DNA from: an uncultured Clostridia bacterium
Lineage (GTDB): Bacteria; Bacillota; Clostridia; Oscillospirales; Acutalibacteraceae
Assembly: GCA_947630835.1 (NCBI GenBank)
Contig: CANRIZ010000001.1
Span: forward strand, 1-64,000
Length of the DNA stretch: 64,000 nt
Direction of reading: 5' to 3'
The notes below the pieces were generated by a model. That model did no database searches, was not told the DNA's origin, and saw nothing but the letters and a program-made list of their open reading frames with translations. This document shows, piece after piece, positions 375-44,620 of this stretch; position 1 is the first letter of the stretch, and the number at the start of each line of letters is the position of its first letter. The translations under genes were made by a program, and so were the position numbers.

Positions 375-1397
375 TTATGAACCGAGAAGGGCTTGGTCGA
401 AAGCAAACAAGGCCTCGTTTATTTCAAAGATATTATAATTTTTATGCGTTATGAAATATTCTATTATTATATCGAACTTACTGCTGTGTGAGAGCGCAAA
501 GCCCGCTTTAAGCAGCAATTCCTCGGTTTCTTCAAGGCTCAGCTCCAAAGCGATTGCAAAAGCCAATGCCGTAGCTTTACTCGGATGATAATAAATATCG
601 CCGCGTATTTTTGAAAAAAGCTTTCGGTCAACGTTCGCCTTTTTGTAACAGGCGCTGTCGGTAATGCCCTTTTCGTCAATCTTTCTCAAAAGCATCTGCG
701 AAAAGCTTTCGTCAATATTGTCGACTTCGTCTTTCAAGCTTCCGGTATCAAAGGCGGGGGCAAGCGCTTCGTCGCTTTTCTCTATCCCGGGATAAAGAAT
801 GGCAGCTGTCGTCAAAATCTTGCTTTCGCCCATATTATCCGCCCAGGTACGATTAAACTCAAAGTTATCGTCAACGTATTTATTGTCGATATAAGAGGCT
901 ATGTTATTAAAAAGCTTTTCGCCGATTTCAAAGGAATCCTTGTCAAAGATAACTATATAAACAAGCATATCGTGGTCGATAAGAAATTCCGTGATTATGT
1001 CAACCGCAACCTTCAGCGCCCGTGCTTTGGGGTAACCGTAAACGCCCGAAGAAATAAGCGGAAACGCCACGGATTCGCAGTCGTTTTCGGCCGCAAGCTT
1101 TAAGCCTTCCCGGTAACAGCTTTCAAGCGCTTCTTTTTCGCCGTTTTCCCCGCCTTTCCATTTCGGACCGACGGTGTGAATAACATATCTGCAGGGAAGC
1201 TTGTAAGCGCCCGTGATTTTTGCCTGCCCAACCTTACAGCCGCCAAGCTTTATACATTCCAAAAGCAGACCTTTACCCGCCGCTTTATGTATCGCTCCGT
1301 CAACTCCGCCGCCACCGAGCAGAGAAGAATTAGCCGCATTCACAATGGCGTCGCATTTTATTTTGGTTATATCGTTTCGTACAATCTGCAATGGCAT
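375..1397 (-). CDS. Macro-domain (ADP-ribose-binding/deacetylase-like) protein with C-terminal helical domain
   Basis: The N-terminal ~165 residues are a macro domain of the Appr-1''-p / O-acetyl-ADP-ribose deacetylase type, with NAANSSLLGGGGVDGAIH at the ADP-ribose site, YVIHTVGP and the SSGVYGYP loop. Family members bind ADP-ribose and many hydrolyse ADP-ribosyl or acetyl-ADP-ribose esters. The remaining ~170 residues form a separate helical domain with the pattern 'RKLFSKIRGD..Y.PSK.TALAFAIAL', which looks like a Cro/C1-type helix-turn-helix. I know this tail only from other firmicute macro proteins and cannot give it a function. A longer frame opens at 1415, but GAGGGG sits 9 bases before the ATG at 1397, so I use that start. 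The gene stands alone under its own promoter (1436-1464). Confidence 0.85.
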   Translation of the reverse strand: MPLQIVRNDITKIKCDAIVNAANSSLLGGGGVDGAIHKAAGKGLLLECIKLGGCKVGQAKITGAYKLPCRYVIHTVGPKWKGGENGEKEALESCYREGLKLAAENDCESVAFPLISSGVYGYPKARALKVAVDIITEFLIDHDMLVYIVIFDKDSFEIGEKLFNNIASYIDNKYVDDNFEFNRTWADNMGESKILTTAAILYPGIEKSDEALAPAFDTGSLKDEVDNIDESFSQMLLRKIDEKGITDSACYKKANVDRKLFSKIRGDIYYHPSKATALAFAIALELSLEETEELLLKAGFALSHSSKFDIIIEYFITHKNYNIFEINEALFAFDQALLGS

Positions 1398-1435
1398 ATA
1401 ATTTCGACCCCTCATAAAAAAATTAAATTACACAT

Positions 1436-1464
1436 ATAATATACATAAATTGCGGAAAATTCAA
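1436..1464 (-). promoter_or_regulatory. Promoter of the macro-domain gene
   Basis: Minus strand TTGAAT (1459-1464), 17-bp spacer, TATTAT (1436-1441), about 40 bp before the start codon. A two-turn direct repeat lies 5 bp upstream of the -35. Confidence 0.65.
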
Positions 1465-1469
1465 CAATT

Positions 1470-1498
1470 TCAGGGTAAACGACCGAAAAATCAGGGCA
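1470..1498 (-). promoter_or_regulatory. Direct-repeat activator-like box, copy 1
   Basis: On the plus strand TCAGGGTA (1470-1477) and TCAGGGCA (1491-1498) are spaced 21 bp start to start, that is two helical turns. Between them is AACGACCGAAAAA. The same box occurs at 42711-42739 upstream of the LRR-dockerin gene, in the same position relative to -35. The geometry resembles LytTR/AgrA/ComE-type response-regulator sites. The regulator is not in the window. Confidence 0.6.
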
Positions 1499-1575
1499 TA
1501 AAACCGAATTTTTTTTGAAAAACGCCGTTCCCGTCAAAAAAAAATCCACGTATTCCGCCGATAAAAATATTACAG

Positions 1576-1653: not shown

Positions 1654-3147
1654 TTGAATATAAAATTTTTGGAAAGCGACGCAGTAAAGAAAATGCGTAA
1701 ATTTTTCATTTCGGAAAAATTTATGATAATTATGTTTTTGCTTGCCGCGTTGATAACTGTTTTTCATCTTGAAGTGCCGGGAGTAATAATATTTATTTTT
1801 ATTGTTTCTGCTCTGCTTGTAATATGCGACGACCTTTTGGCGACAACGCTGCCGTTTTTGCTGGTTTCATTGACCGCCATAAAATGCAACGATTCTTTTC
1901 ATATCTTTATTAAATATATCGGCTTTATCGTCGTAATACTTGCCGCCCTGATTTTTCACTTCGTATATTACCGTAAAAAAATCGTTTTAGGCAAGGCGCT
2001 GTACCCGATGATAGGCGTTTCGGTTGCCGTTACTCTCGGCGGCGTGGGCTTCCTTTCGCTTAAAGAATACTTTAATCTTGTATCTTTTTACTATGTATTC
2101 GGATTAGGCTTCGGCATGGTCATAATTTACATACTGCTTACAACCTACCTAAACGGCGAAAGAGATTATTCCGTTAAGGAAAAATTTACGGATATAATGA
2201 TTTATATGGGCTTGTTCGCCGTATTTATGATGATTGAATTTTATGCCGCGAATATCAACCTTGTTCTTGAAACAAAGCATATACTTTATATGCAATGGCG
2301 CAACAACATTTCAACCTTTTTAATGCTTGCGATGCCTTTTGCGGCGTTTAAAGCGGTAAAAAAGCCTTCGTATATTTTCCTTGTTCTGATATACTACCTT
2401 TGCATGCTGCTTGCGGGCTCGAGAGGCGGTTTGATTTTCGGCGGAATTGAGCTTGTAATGACTATAAGCATATTGATAGGCATTGACAAGCGGCACAGGT
2501 GGACTTATATAGCGATAGCTATGGGTATTTTAATCTCTGTAGCCTTCTATTTTCAGGATTTTTACGGCTTTTTCAGCGAAACGATTAACAGGCTCATTTC
2601 CGGGCTTATGGGCATTTCGGGTTCGGAAAAAGAGGTAAGACTTAAGCTTTTTGCAAGAGCCTTTGACGATTTTAACTCCAACCCCATTTTCGGAACGGGT
2701 CTTGCTTACATGGGTAACCGAGACGTTCACCCCTCCAAGGAATTTGCGCTTTGCTGGTATCACTGCGAACCGCTGCAAATTATGGCGAGCCTCGGCACGC
2801 TCGGAATAGTCGCCTTTGCAATACAGCTTATGTGGAGATTCTATATTTTCCTTAAAAAGAAAACCGTATTCAATATTACAATCCTCGTTTCCTACATAGG
2901 GCTTGAAATGATGTCGCTTGTAAATCCCGGAGTTTTCTGCCCGGTTCCGTACCTGTTTATGGTAACCATGTATTTGGCGATTGTGGAAATGGTCAACAAA
3001 ACCGATTTTACCAAGGACATTGCAAGCGAGATAAACGAGGAGCAGCAATTTGAGGAATCGGACGATTTGGACGACGATATTTACGACGATGACGATGAAA
3101 CCGTTAAAGCGAAACCGTTGAAAAGAAAAGCCTGTAAAACCCGATAA
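1654..3147 (+). CDS. O-antigen ligase/polymerase-like (Wzy/WaaL) membrane protein
   Basis: A 497-residue polytopic membrane protein with about 10-12 hydrophobic segments. The late periplasmic-loop-type stretch around residues 345-395 (FDDFNSNPIFGTGLAYMG then WYHCEPLQIMASLGTLGI) has the spacing and H/E-L pattern of the O-antigen ligase domain. Such proteins join or polymerise lipid-linked glycans outside the membrane; in a Gram-positive this would be a capsular or wall polysaccharide. The start is TTG with GAGG about 8 bases upstream. The last ~45 residues are very acidic (DDLDDDIYDDDDE) and then basic. No other polysaccharide genes adjoin it, so the substrate is unknown. Confidence 0.75.
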   Translation: MNIKFLESDAVKKMRKFFISEKFMIIMFLLAALITVFHLEVPGVIIFIFIVSALLVICDDLLATTLPFLLVSLTAIKCNDSFHIFIKYIGFIVVILAALIFHFVYYRKKIVLGKALYPMIGVSVAVTLGGVGFLSLKEYFNLVSFYYVFGLGFGMVIIYILLTTYLNGERDYSVKEKFTDIMIYMGLFAVFMMIEFYAANINLVLETKHILYMQWRNNISTFLMLAMPFAAFKAVKKPSYIFLVLIYYLCMLLAGSRGGLIFGGIELVMTISILIGIDKRHRWTYIAIAMGILISVAFYFQDFYGFFSETINRLISGLMGISGSEKEVRLKLFARAFDDFNSNPIFGTGLAYMGNRDVHPSKEFALCWYHCEPLQIMASLGTLGIVAFAIQLMWRFYIFLKKKTVFNITILVSYIGLEMMSLVNPGVFCPVPYLFMVTMYLAIVEMVNKTDFTKDIASEINEEQQFEESDDLDDDIYDDDDETVKAKPLKRKACKTR

Positions 3148-41450: not shown

Positions 41451-42575
41451 TTAAACAGTTCTCATTCCCGCTACTGTCTGAAGAACCCACTTCGCGTCGA
41501 CCGTGGTAACCTTACCGTCGCCGTTGAGGTCGGCGGCCTTGAATTGCGCGTTGCTGAAAGTCCTTGACCCCGCTATGTTCTGCAAAATCCACTTAGCGTC
41601 AACGGTCGAAAGATTGCCGTCGTTGTTAACGTCACCTTTTGCGCCCGATACGTCGGGCGTCGTCGGATTTTCGGGAGTGCTTGACTGTTCTTCGTTTAAC
41701 GGAATAAATTGCAAATCCCAACCGTCGGCATATGTCTCGGCTGTTGAGCCTTTATACCCGTAAATCGTAAAATGCGCTTCAAAATTGCTGTCGTCGCCTA
41801 TAACGTTTAATTCGCAATCCTCATTTAAAATTTCGATTTTTTTAAAATTATCGCAATTGCCAAATGCCATGCTACCCAGACTTACAACGCTTTCGGGTAT
41901 GGTAACGCTTTCAACTGCGGTTCCGGAAAACGCTCTTTCGCCTATAGTTTCTACTCCGTTTGAAATGTTAATACTTTTCAAAGAACTGCAATGACCAAAT
42001 GCAGCACTACCTATGCTTTTAACATTACCGGGGATAGTTATGCTTGTTAAGCCTGTGCAACAGTAAAAAGCCATCTCACCTATGATTGTAACACCGTTAC
42101 CTATTATTATGTTAGTTAAGCTGTCGCACTCTTCAAATGCCATAAGATCTATGCTTGTAACGCTGTCGGGTATTGTTATGCTTGTTAAGCTGTGGCATTT
42201 TTCAAATGCACTATTGCCTATGCTTGTAACGCTTTCGGGTATTGTTATGCTTGTTAAACCGTTGCAATGTGAAAATGCGCTATCGCCTATGCTTGTAACG
42301 CTGTCGGGGATAGTTACATTTGTTAGGCTGTTGCAATATGAAAATGAATTATCACCGATAATTTCAACCGTGTGGCCGTCAAGAGTTGAGGGAATTTCAA
42401 GCGATTCCGCCTTCCCGTTATAACTTCTAATTTTCGCTGTGCCGTCTTCAAGTATTTTATACCCGAAATCTCCGCTTACCTCCGCAAATGCGGTAACCCC
42501 TGCCAATGGCAGAGCCGTTAATATCACAGCTAATGATATTAACAATGAAATGAGTTTTTTTGTTCCTGTTTTCAT
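41451..42575 (-). CDS. Secreted BspA-type leucine-rich-repeat protein with type I dockerin
   Basis: A 374-residue exported protein. Residues 1-31 are a signal peptide ending in TAFA. Residues ~65-275 hold about nine BspA/LRR_5 repeats of ~23 residues with the core SLTSITIPDSVTSIGxxAF. A short linker (SSTPENPTTPDVS) leads to a type I dockerin (residues ~313-374) with two calcium-loop repeats, GDVNNDGNLSTVDAKWILQ and ADLNGDGKVTTVDAKWVLQ. It should bind a cohesin on a scaffold or cell surface; LRRs suggest protein or host binding. GAGAGG precedes the ATG. Promoter at 42677-42705 with the direct-repeat box above it. Confidence 0.92.
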   Translation of the reverse strand: MKTGTKKLISLLISLAVILTALPLAGVTAFAEVSGDFGYKILEDGTAKIRSYNGKAESLEIPSTLDGHTVEIIGDNSFSYCNSLTNVTIPDSVTSIGDSAFSHCNGLTSITIPESVTSIGNSAFEKCHSLTSITIPDSVTSIDLMAFEECDSLTNIIIGNGVTIIGEMAFYCCTGLTSITIPGNVKSIGSAAFGHCSSLKSINISNGVETIGERAFSGTAVESVTIPESVVSLGSMAFGNCDNFKKIEILNEDCELNVIGDDSNFEAHFTIYGYKGSTAETYADGWDLQFIPLNEEQSSTPENPTTPDVSGAKGDVNNDGNLSTVDAKWILQNIAGSRTFSNAQFKAADLNGDGKVTTVDAKWVLQTVAGMRTV

Positions 42576-42676: not shown

Positions 42677-42705
42677 ATTTTACAACTTAAAAATTTAAAT
42701 TTCAA
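42677..42705 (-). promoter_or_regulatory. Promoter of the LRR-dockerin gene
   Basis: Minus strand TTGAAA (42700-42705), 17-bp spacer, TAAAAT (42677-42682), about 100 bp before the ATG. The direct-repeat box begins 5 bp upstream of -35, as at the macro-domain promoter. Confidence 0.65.
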
Positions 42706-42710
42706 TACAA

Positions 42711-42739
42711 TCAGGGTAAACGACCGAGAGATCAGGGTA
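42711..42739 (-). promoter_or_regulatory. Direct-repeat activator-like box, copy 2
   Basis: TCAGGGTA occurs at 42711-42718 and 42732-42739 (plus-strand reading), again 21 bp apart, with AACGACCGAGAGA between them. The spacer sequence and following ATAAAAC also match copy 1 (1470-1498). Confidence 0.6.
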
Positions 42740-42774
42740 TAAAACTTGAATTTTGCCTTTTGCCGACGAAAATC

Positions 42775-42814
42775 AAAGCGGTTATACCAAGTTTTACCTC
42801 GGTATAACCGCTTT
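42775..42814. terminator. Hairpin downstream of the broken LRR gene, copy 2
   Basis: AAAGCGGTTATACC and GGTATAACCGCTTT pair perfectly over 14 bp with a 12-base loop. It repeats the stem at 41340-41376 and occupies the equivalent place after the second LRR gene. Confidence 0.65.
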
Positions 42815-42868: not shown

Positions 42869-43481
42869 TTATTTCACCGTTTCCAAAGTCTTGCCGTCGC
42901 CGCTTACGTCGCCGATTACTATTTCCGCGAATTTGTTGCCTTTAGCTTTTGCGTAATCTTCGGCGGTTGAACCCGAATAGCCGTGAATAACGGTTTGAGC
43001 GGGTATTTCGGACGTTTCCAAACCGCAAGCCTTGTTCAAAACATAAATATCGGTTAAGCCGTCGCAATTGCCGAACGCATACTCGCCTATGCTTGTAACG
43101 CTGTCGGGGATTACATATGTCCCCGCCTTTCCCTCGGGATATCTTAAAAGCTCTGTTTTGTTTTTATCAAACAAAATACCGTCTTGGGAAGAATATTTTT
43201 CATTGGCAGTGTTTACCTCAATATTTTCGAGATGTTTCAAAGAATCAAACGCATAGCCGGCATCGATACTTTCGACTGTTTCGGGTATAATTACCTTCTT
43301 TATGCCGCTGCGGTCGTATTTTACGGGTTCTGCCGCCGCTGCGTCGCCCTCGGTGGCTTCCGGTACAAAAGCGTCTTTAGCAAGGCTTACAACCTTGTGG
43401 CCGTCTATTTCGCGGGAAAGACGATATTATCATTATCAACGATAACAATAACGAGATACGCTTTTTTGAAATTGATTTAAT
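42869..43481 (-). pseudogene. Broken BspA-type LRR protein gene
   Basis: The open part (42869-43426, minus) encodes IDGHKVVSLAKDAF, IKKVIIPETVESIDAGYAF, YVIPDSVTSIGEYAFGNCDGLTDI and HGYSGSTAEDYAK, all LRR_5 or BspA segments, ending in GDVSGDGK, a truncated dockerin-like start. Upstream, a good signal peptide (KSISKKRISLLLSLIMIISS) lies in another frame, 8 bases after AAAGGAG, and its first codon is ATT at 43479-43481 rather than ATG. Signal and LRR parts are thus separated by a frameshift and the start is degraded. I infer a decayed paralogue of the neighbouring LRR-dockerin gene. A shorter cytoplasmic product from an internal TTG (43240) is possible but would not be secreted. Confidence 0.75.
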
Positions 43482-43546
43482 AACAGGATCTCCTTTATAA
43501 TTTATTTTTAAAATCGCTTGGATTTTATGCACTTTAAAAAATAAAC

Positions 43547-44620
43547 TTATACCTCAACGGGTTCCTTCATACCCGAAACAATCTGCAAAACATATTTTGC
43601 GTCGACCGTGGAGAGCTTACCGTCGTTATTCATATCAATAACATAGGTCATTTCGTTTGTCATGGTTTTTGTGCCCGCAAGGATTTGGAGCATCCATTTT
43701 GCGTCGACAACCGTTATATTGCCGTCCGCCGTTACGTCGCCGAGAAGTTTTTTTGCCGCAGGCGGCGTTACGGTTACCTTCACTTTTCCGCTTACAGTAC
43801 CCTTACCGTCAACGGAGGTTATGCTTGTTGCGACTTCGCAGCTTCCCGTTTCAAGCCCGGTAAGCTTTACGGCATTTGTCATAAGCTCGGCGCTTAATGT
43901 TTTTTCGTCGGATAAAGTAAAGCTTTTGGGGTTGATGATAAACTTAACGCTCGTCCAGCCGGCGTTTACACATTCAAAAAATACGCTGTCGCTTTTGCCC
44001 TTTTCTATTGTTAAGGCTTCGGGCTCGGTAACTATTTTTTCAACAAGCTTTTTTTCGCACAAAATGTTGAAATTGCCCGTATCTTTTTTAACGGTTCTTG
44101 TTTCCTCGGGAGTTCCCTCGATATTTGACGCCAAAATTACGAAAAAGTAAATGCCGTTGTGATAAACTATGCCGACGCCAACGCTCTTGTAATCCGATTT
44201 AAGGAAATTATAAAACATTTCGTTTTCTTCCCCGAATATTTCCTCAAGGCTGTTAACGAATGCAGAAGCGTATTGATAAGTTCCGTTTTTAAACTTTTCG
44301 GGCATTACGCTTTCGTAAGAATTTTTGTTTTCCGTATCGTTGGGTCTTGCGCTTCCCAAATATACGGCGCATTCCGCCGCGCGCTGCATGGCGGCGTCCA
44401 TAAGCTCTTTATCCGCAGTAAAGGTATCGAGCCTGTTTACCGTGCGATAATTGTTTATGCGGTCAAATAATTTGTAAGACGTTTCATAATCGGCAGTTCC
44501 CGATATTTCAATGTTATAAAGCTCTTTTTCCTCGGCGCTGTCCCCGGCGGCGAAAGAACAAAACGCAAACATATTTACCAGCAATGCCGCAGCCATAAAA
44601 AGTGATATTAATTTTCTCAT
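43547..44620 (-). CDS. Secreted CAP (SCP/PR1)-domain protein with type I dockerin
   Basis: A 357-residue exported protein. The signal peptide spans ~1-25 (LISLFMAAALLVNMFAFCSFAAG). Residues ~43-170 match a CAP domain (YKLFDRINNYRTVNRLDTFTADKELMDAAMQRAAECA and VGVGIVYHNGIYFFVILAS). A beta-rich stretch (~205-285) follows, then a type I dockerin (GDVTADGNITVVDAKWMLQ and DMNNDGKLSTVDAKYVLQ). CAP proteins have no single known activity. AAAGGAG lies right after the mtaB stop, 14 bp away, so the gene is probably read from the mtaB transcript. Confidence 0.88.
   Translation of the reverse strand: MRKLISLFMAAALLVNMFAFCSFAAGDSAEEKELYNIEISGTADYETSYKLFDRINNYRTVNRLDTFTADKELMDAAMQRAAECAVYLGSARPNDTENKNSYESVMPEKFKNGTYQYASAFVNSLEEIFGEENEMFYNFLKSDYKSVGVGIVYHNGIYFFVILASNIEGTPEETRTVKKDTGNFNILCEKKLVEKIVTEPEALTIEKGKSDSVFFECVNAGWTSVKFIINPKSFTLSDEKTLSAELMTNAVKLTGLETGSCEVATSITSVDGKGTVSGKVKVTVTPPAAKKLLGDVTADGNITVVDAKWMLQILAGTKTMTNEMTYVIDMNNDGKLSTVDAKYVLQIVSGMKEPVEV

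Follow-up and report, generated by a model that had tools for sequence, protein, structure and literature searches.

The two-part direct-repeat box at positions 42710–42745 of the window (the whole analysed stretch of 64,000 nucleotides from an uncultured Clostridia bacterium) is very probably the operator of one LytTR response regulator, encoded on contig C8 of the same assembly and predicted to act as an activator. As far as comparison of sequences can tell, it is a regulatory site of an ordinary kind, belonging to a new, clearly delimited regulon for which a candidate regulator can be named.

On the plus strand, positions 42711–42739 read TCAGGGTAAACGACCGAGAGATCAGGGTA, that is TCAGGGTA twice, 21 bp apart (TCAGGGTA-N13-TCAGGGTA), and the pair that an earlier note on this DNA had placed at this spacing near the LRR-dockerin promoter is thereby read directly. 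The order on the minus strand is box, 5 bp, TTGAAA, 17 bp, TAAAAT and the LRR-dockerin gene. The 29-bp element described in that note is present, but its limits were drawn too short: comparison of 18 promoters (13 from our own assembly, G000, and five from G035, a genome of the same genus) starts the repeated unit 6 bp further upstream, so that the full element extends over about 42710–42745. The unit, GTnnTwyACCCTGAT, is about 15 bp long and is present in two copies with a 21-bp period; the T, C, G, G and T of a TCGGT centre are kept in 17–18 of the 18 promoters and the next C in 14. Across the same promoters ACCCTGATn stands twice with 12 bp between, in agreement with direct repeats of the LytTR type. 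The features of the window are as follows.

42710–42745, minus strand: whole two-part box, the putative operator (18-promoter comparison and pattern scan)
42731–42745, minus strand: first, promoter-distal half-site GTTTTATACCCTGAT
42710–42724, minus strand: second, promoter-proximal half-site GTCGTTTACCCTGAT
42722–42727, minus strand: conserved centre TCGGTC, which runs into the second half-site (18-promoter comparison)
42700–42705, minus strand: -35-like TTGAAA
42677–42682, minus strand: -10-like TAAAAT
41451–42575, minus strand: BspA-type LRR (LRR_5) and dockerin type I protein of 374 aa, target of the C1 box at 42.7 kb (Pfam LRR_5 196 bits, Dockerin_1 47.1 bits)
1469–1504, minus strand: the other box of the window (one mismatch in the 29-mer)
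1459–1464, minus strand: -35-like TTGAAT of the macro-domain promoter
1436–1441, minus strand: -10-like TATTAT of the macro-domain promoter
375–1415, minus strand: macro-domain protein, a 346-aa ORF, target of the C1 box at 1.5 kb (Pfam Macro 154.2 bits)

The other copy reported for the window was found at 1470–1498 with an identical inner AAACGACCGA, but one of its halves reads TGCCCTGA, which is the single mismatch in the 29-mer. Likewise, the 5-bp offset to the promoter holds at both boxes, and it is only the hexamers that had been misread, those of the macro-domain promoter being TTGAAT-N17-TATTAT instead of TTGAAA-N17-TAAAAT. The opinion that such agreement is unlikely by chance is borne out by shuffles of the window, which gave on average 0.11 matches at up to three mismatches, two matches being reached in one shuffle of 100. 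Just upstream of the box at 42710–42745 a long inverted repeat, AAAGCGGTTATACC...GGTATAACCGCTTT, occupies 42775–42814 and is possibly the terminator of the preceding genes. Further on, between the box and the CAP-domain dockerin gene at 43547–44620, the minus strand carries at 42869–43540 an LRR gene remnant interrupted by stop codons and lacking an intact frame, in which a 123-aa ORF has a sub-threshold LRR_5 match.

A genome-wide motif search, which had been suggested as a check, was carried out over the whole assembly (2.10 Mb, 39 contigs) with the ACCCTGATNNNTCGGNNNTNNACCCTGA pattern at up to three mismatches and returned 13 boxes, 12 of them exact and one with one mismatch; nothing appeared at two or three mismatches, and the reversed-pattern control gave 0 matches. 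A sequence model trained on 16 promoters, the 18 minus the two copies at contig ends, recovered the identical 13 boxes, all with E of 6e-17 or better and the next match at 0.42, 150 of 1595 first-look candidates being scored. A looser pattern produced 29 matches at up to three mismatches versus 2 in its control, the 16 at three mismatches not being taken as boxes. With the window shuffles and the genome-wide control, chance origin of the boxes was ruled out. The arrangement relative to the promoter is equally regular: when at least four of six letters are demanded in each hexamer, a -35/-10 pair starts exactly 5 bp behind the 29-mer at all 13 boxes of our assembly and at 17 of 18 if G035 is included (200 shuffling rounds gave 0.4 on average and never more than 3 of 18). 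The gap to the -35 is thus 5 bp from the 29-mer, or 3 bp if counted from the 9-mer.

Beyond the two genes of the window, the boxes of the assembly stand before the following targets.

C13, C14 at 60.7 kb and C14 at 63.3 kb: LRR_5-dockerin proteins
C14 at 52 kb: dockerin protein
C27: second macro-domain gene, then an LRR_5-dockerin gene
C7: Tad-like pilus operon (TadZ, T2SSE ATPase, two T2SSF proteins and Flp1-like pilin)
C3: large-protein operon (276-aa and 1866-aa proteins without Pfam matches)
C8: zinc-ribbon protein and zinc-ribbon/DUF805 protein
C18 and C19: downstream sequence running off the contig ends
C6: no ORF with a ribosome-binding site within 420 bp (script scan)

Contigs C18 (L033) and C19 (L034) both stop at about 38 bp past the box, and since the breaks fall in identical sequence a repeated gene that the assembly did not separate probably follows. 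Behind the C6 box a 249-nt stretch of the plus strand (L028, about 2812–3060) folds more stably than any of 200 shuffles (z -5.3) and shows a hairpin with six T behind it, although no plus-strand terminator was reported there by the terminator scan; Rfam, which returned nothing at gathering scores in the four loci tested, gave it no match. We consider it a candidate small RNA some 230 nt long. A general dockerin switch was ruled out, as 6 of the 57 dockerin matches in the assembly stand behind a box. The pilus was rejected as a conserved target too: TadZ was not found in G035, G025 and G038 and has only a weak match in G267, near which the ORFs resemble by eye type VII secretion and not Tad.

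Five LytTR genes are present in the assembly, and the box adjoins the C8 one alone, about 70 bp before its start. The encoded protein of 237 aa scores 56.8 bits for LytTR (cut-off 22.6) and 20.3 bits for Response_reg, under the cut-off of 30.2, the N-terminal acidic residues and FLDI being conserved; judged by these signatures it would carry its LytTR domain behind a receiver domain. Neighbouring kinases are found as well, two GHKL kinase genes following the regulator in our assembly and one following its ortholog in G267. A search of solved structures gave one match, to a designed repeat protein, which was taken as spurious. The C8 box sits between the regulator gene and the divergent zinc-ribbon gene, and its promoter faces the latter, away from the regulator; on the regulator side the -10 is TATAAT, and CTGAAA-like letters adjoin the box (C8 sequence and scan of G035). 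It is this layout of box and promoters that suggests autoregulation.

Among 39 genomes of the genus (27 of them at least 90% complete with little contamination), boxes with 0–1 mismatch occur in two, G000 with 13 and G035 with 5, and these are also the only genomes holding the regulator at more than 44% identity (100% and 67%, respectively), the co-occurrence thus resting on two genomes. In 398 genomes drawn from the family, three further single matches with two mismatches (G172, G229 and G318) were rejected as boxes, such a promoter being absent behind them and two lying inside listed ORFs. Also rejected were the single match in G032, with three mismatches, and the five three-mismatch matches in G001, which overlap at 21-bp steps; this tandem array of 21-bp units (G001:C15:24006-24117) recalls, at three mismatches, the spacing of the box. 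The boxes of G035 are placed as follows.

Box 1: beside the regulator, its -35 (CTGTAA) being poor and no convincing gene following
Box 2: before a 275-aa/1859-aa pair resembling by eye the C3 operon
Box 3: before an LRR_5-dockerin gene
Box 4: 485 bp ahead of two AMP-binding enzyme genes
Box 5 (L097, C1 450–1845): at a place syntenic by eye to position 1470 of the window, with a GLUG-motif gene instead of the macro-domain gene

For the last of them, comparison with 375–1504 of the window revealed that neighbours and box are alike and that the gene behind the box differs, which reads, from the two sequences, as exchange of the target under a kept promoter. A sixth, weaker site of G035 (E 1.9e-7) lies ahead of an LRR_5 gene whose dockerin match is sub-threshold, in a position that by eye corresponds in synteny to the C19 site.

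A similarly built box in other letters, alike in position and strand, recurs upstream of regulator orthologs, e.g., CTTTTTACCACGCAAAGTCGGTCCGTCGCCACGCAAA in G025. A clear box (score of at least 15) adjoins 8 of 15 orthologs (G000, G035, G038, G025, G267, G487, G490 and G482), and two more, G501 (13.5) and G431 (12.6), both below 15, were classed as weaker boxes since they agree in position, strand and AGTwwTTyACC start; beside the other five (G002, G037, G160, G251 and G468) there is none. None of 27 other LytTR loci reached 15, the best control scoring 13.3 (28 loci were given, L088 was dropped as having no ORF, and L005 and L087 are one gene). In G000, G035, G038, G025 and G267 the score was reached by 0 of 200 shuffles; it is not independent for G000, G025, G038 and G267, having been written after these four were seen. 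The six new orthologs, which come from the genus of G267, were fetched after the score had been written and were examined with the score unchanged: G487, G490 and G482 were equalled by 0 of 300 shuffles, G501 by 2, G431 by 19 and G468 by 250. If repeats are judged by identity only, 21 bp is not a conspicuous period in this second genus, and two other LytTR genes also have a good 21-bp repeat in the upstream stretch. In a midpoint-rooted tree with 18 other LytTR proteins (from 18 of the 28 control loci), 14 orthologs form one group at 100/100, G160 being left out on account of an in-frame TGA; possession of a box is not clustered on the regulator tree beyond shuffles (165 of 500). Just before a conserved His, G000 and G035, with half-sites that end in CTGAT, have Val and the other 12 orthologs have Cys; our guess would be that this residue drives the respelling. 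A wider respelled regulon in G025 and G038 cannot be claimed, since matches to TTGCGTGG-N13-TTGCGTGG at up to three mismatches stay there at background level, controls being similar or higher; at 0–1 mismatch solely the copies adjoining the two regulator genes are found. In G267 a long series of genes, all on one strand, is transcribed away from the regulator ortholog on C17 (L169, L173): FHA/DUF6382, zinc-ribbon, phosphatase-like and kinase-like ORFs come first and WXG100-like and large FHA/ATPase-like ones follow, by eye a type VII secretion locus.

How the copies came to be where they are deserves separate consideration, as a duplicated promoter cassette or a mobile repeat could have spread them with no common regulation involved. 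Part of the set does look like this: flanks are shared at C1 42.7 kb, C13, C14 (60.7 and 63.3 kb) and C19, which are duplicated LRR-dockerin promoters, and contigs C18 and C19 terminate in the same stretch. Yet the two window copies display no flank similarity to each other (local score of at least 20, about 300 bp on each side), so a mobile repeat does not explain them and was ruled out as their origin; no common flanks were found among the C3, C6, C7, C8, C14 (52 kb) and C27 boxes either, and G035 has boxes at syntenic places. Spread without common regulation is therefore hardly credible, and the proposal of the earlier note that the copies are a shared regulator site, which longer transposable repeats covering the promoters would have undermined, is supported. 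A genuine operator may nevertheless serve another protein, one of the four other LytTR products or an unrelated regulator, the C8 gene being just one among its targets. The presence of these four genes and the five orthologs without a box leave some room for that, but none of the four has an adjoining box, box and C8 ortholog co-occur within the genus, and the footprint tracks the clade of the C8 regulator and not the 27 other LytTR loci, which renders assignment to another protein quite improbable.

Assignment to the C8 regulator being preferred, its sign of action has to be weighed. The regulator might bind and repress, or act differently on the two sides of a divergent site, given that on the regulator side the box abuts the regulator's own -35-like region; against this, 17 of 18 promoters carry the box upstream of the -35 without any overlap, and activation is what has been published for LytTR repeats so placed, according to the consulted parts of that study (PMC6193735). 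Repression or two-sided action is accordingly judged unlikely. From the conservation, geometry, linkage, co-occurrence and footprint read in the sequence we infer binding, phosphorylation, activation and autoregulation in the following form. A signal would act through the neighbouring GHKL kinase, which would phosphorylate the LytTR regulator; the latter would bind the two half-sites on one helix face, next to the -35, and recruit RNA polymerase to promoters with imperfect hexamers, while also controlling its own gene. The likely outcome would be coordinated production of BspA-type LRR/dockerin proteins, the Tad-like pilus, the large-protein operon and two macro-domain proteins. A bolder picture, in which the two-component system acts as master switch for surface identity and turns on jointly, in the manner of AgrA/RNAIII, the LRR-dockerin coat, the Tad-like pilus, the macro-domain proteins and the structured small RNA of C6, and in which the operator is respelled together with the DNA-contact motif of the regulator as genes are swapped under a fixed box, appears doubtful to us, though worth stating.

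With the activator assignment, a dockerin-rich lineage of Clostridia would gain a defined regulon, a candidate regulator and a 36-bp operator. LRR-dockerin proteins, Tad-like pilus and macro-domain proteins would share one likely signal, making any clue to one of these groups relevant to the others. Moreover, box and regulator seem to have changed in step across two genera, and such co-divergence would be a natural data set for reading the DNA specificity of LytTR proteins.

Comparison with known systems relies on the consulted parts of the papers cited. Among the open-licence PMC matches listed, no paper treats LytTR together with a tad pilus and none describes a box regulon of LRR-dockerin, pilus and macro-domain genes. 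A LytTR gene has been linked to cellulase genes, with no operator in the parts consulted (PMC5733062). XydS/XydR of Clostridium cellulolyticum resembles our case in being a two-component system tied to dockerin-bearing genes and is compared on that link alone; unlike the targets described here, those of XydS/XydR are a hemicellulase cluster responding to straw (PMC3572039). LytTR operators are in general direct repeats of 9–11 nt spaced 11–13 nt, with no family-wide consensus (PMC4847170), and YpdB and BtsR/YehT of Escherichia coli are alike in combining a LytTR response regulator with repeats of this size and spacing. Their targets are metabolic (pyruvate response), and the letters of the YpdB site are unlike those of the box.

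HdrR and BrsR of Streptococcus mutans have 9-bp repeats starting ACC, mostly 12 bp apart, with autoregulation as well as outside targets (PMC6193735). Their repeats lie 4–11 bp upstream of the -35 (PMC6193735); the present box is also just upstream of it, at 3 bp from the 9-mer being slightly closer than the published range. Unlike HdrR/BrsR, its repeat is ACCCTGAT with a conserved centre and a gap of 3–5 bp to the -35, according to the end point chosen for the unit, and whereas HdrR and BrsR have a membrane inhibitor protein as partner, the C8 gene is followed by GHKL kinases (PMC6193735). A LytTR regulatory system (LRS) of the S. mutans type was rejected, the following genes having GHKL ATPase domains. 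In agr P2/P3 of Staphylococcus aureus repeats exist for each of two promoters, whereas one box lies between two in our assembly, and the half-site letters differ (PMC4227749). What the AgrA sites share with the box and its candidate regulator, as far as the consulted parts of that work describe them, is a two-component LytTR regulator, direct repeats upstream of promoters and a divergent intergenic region by the regulator's own genes, and the AgrA motif corresponding to the Val/Cys-His site is FFRCHNS, with H200 close to DNA (PMC4227749).
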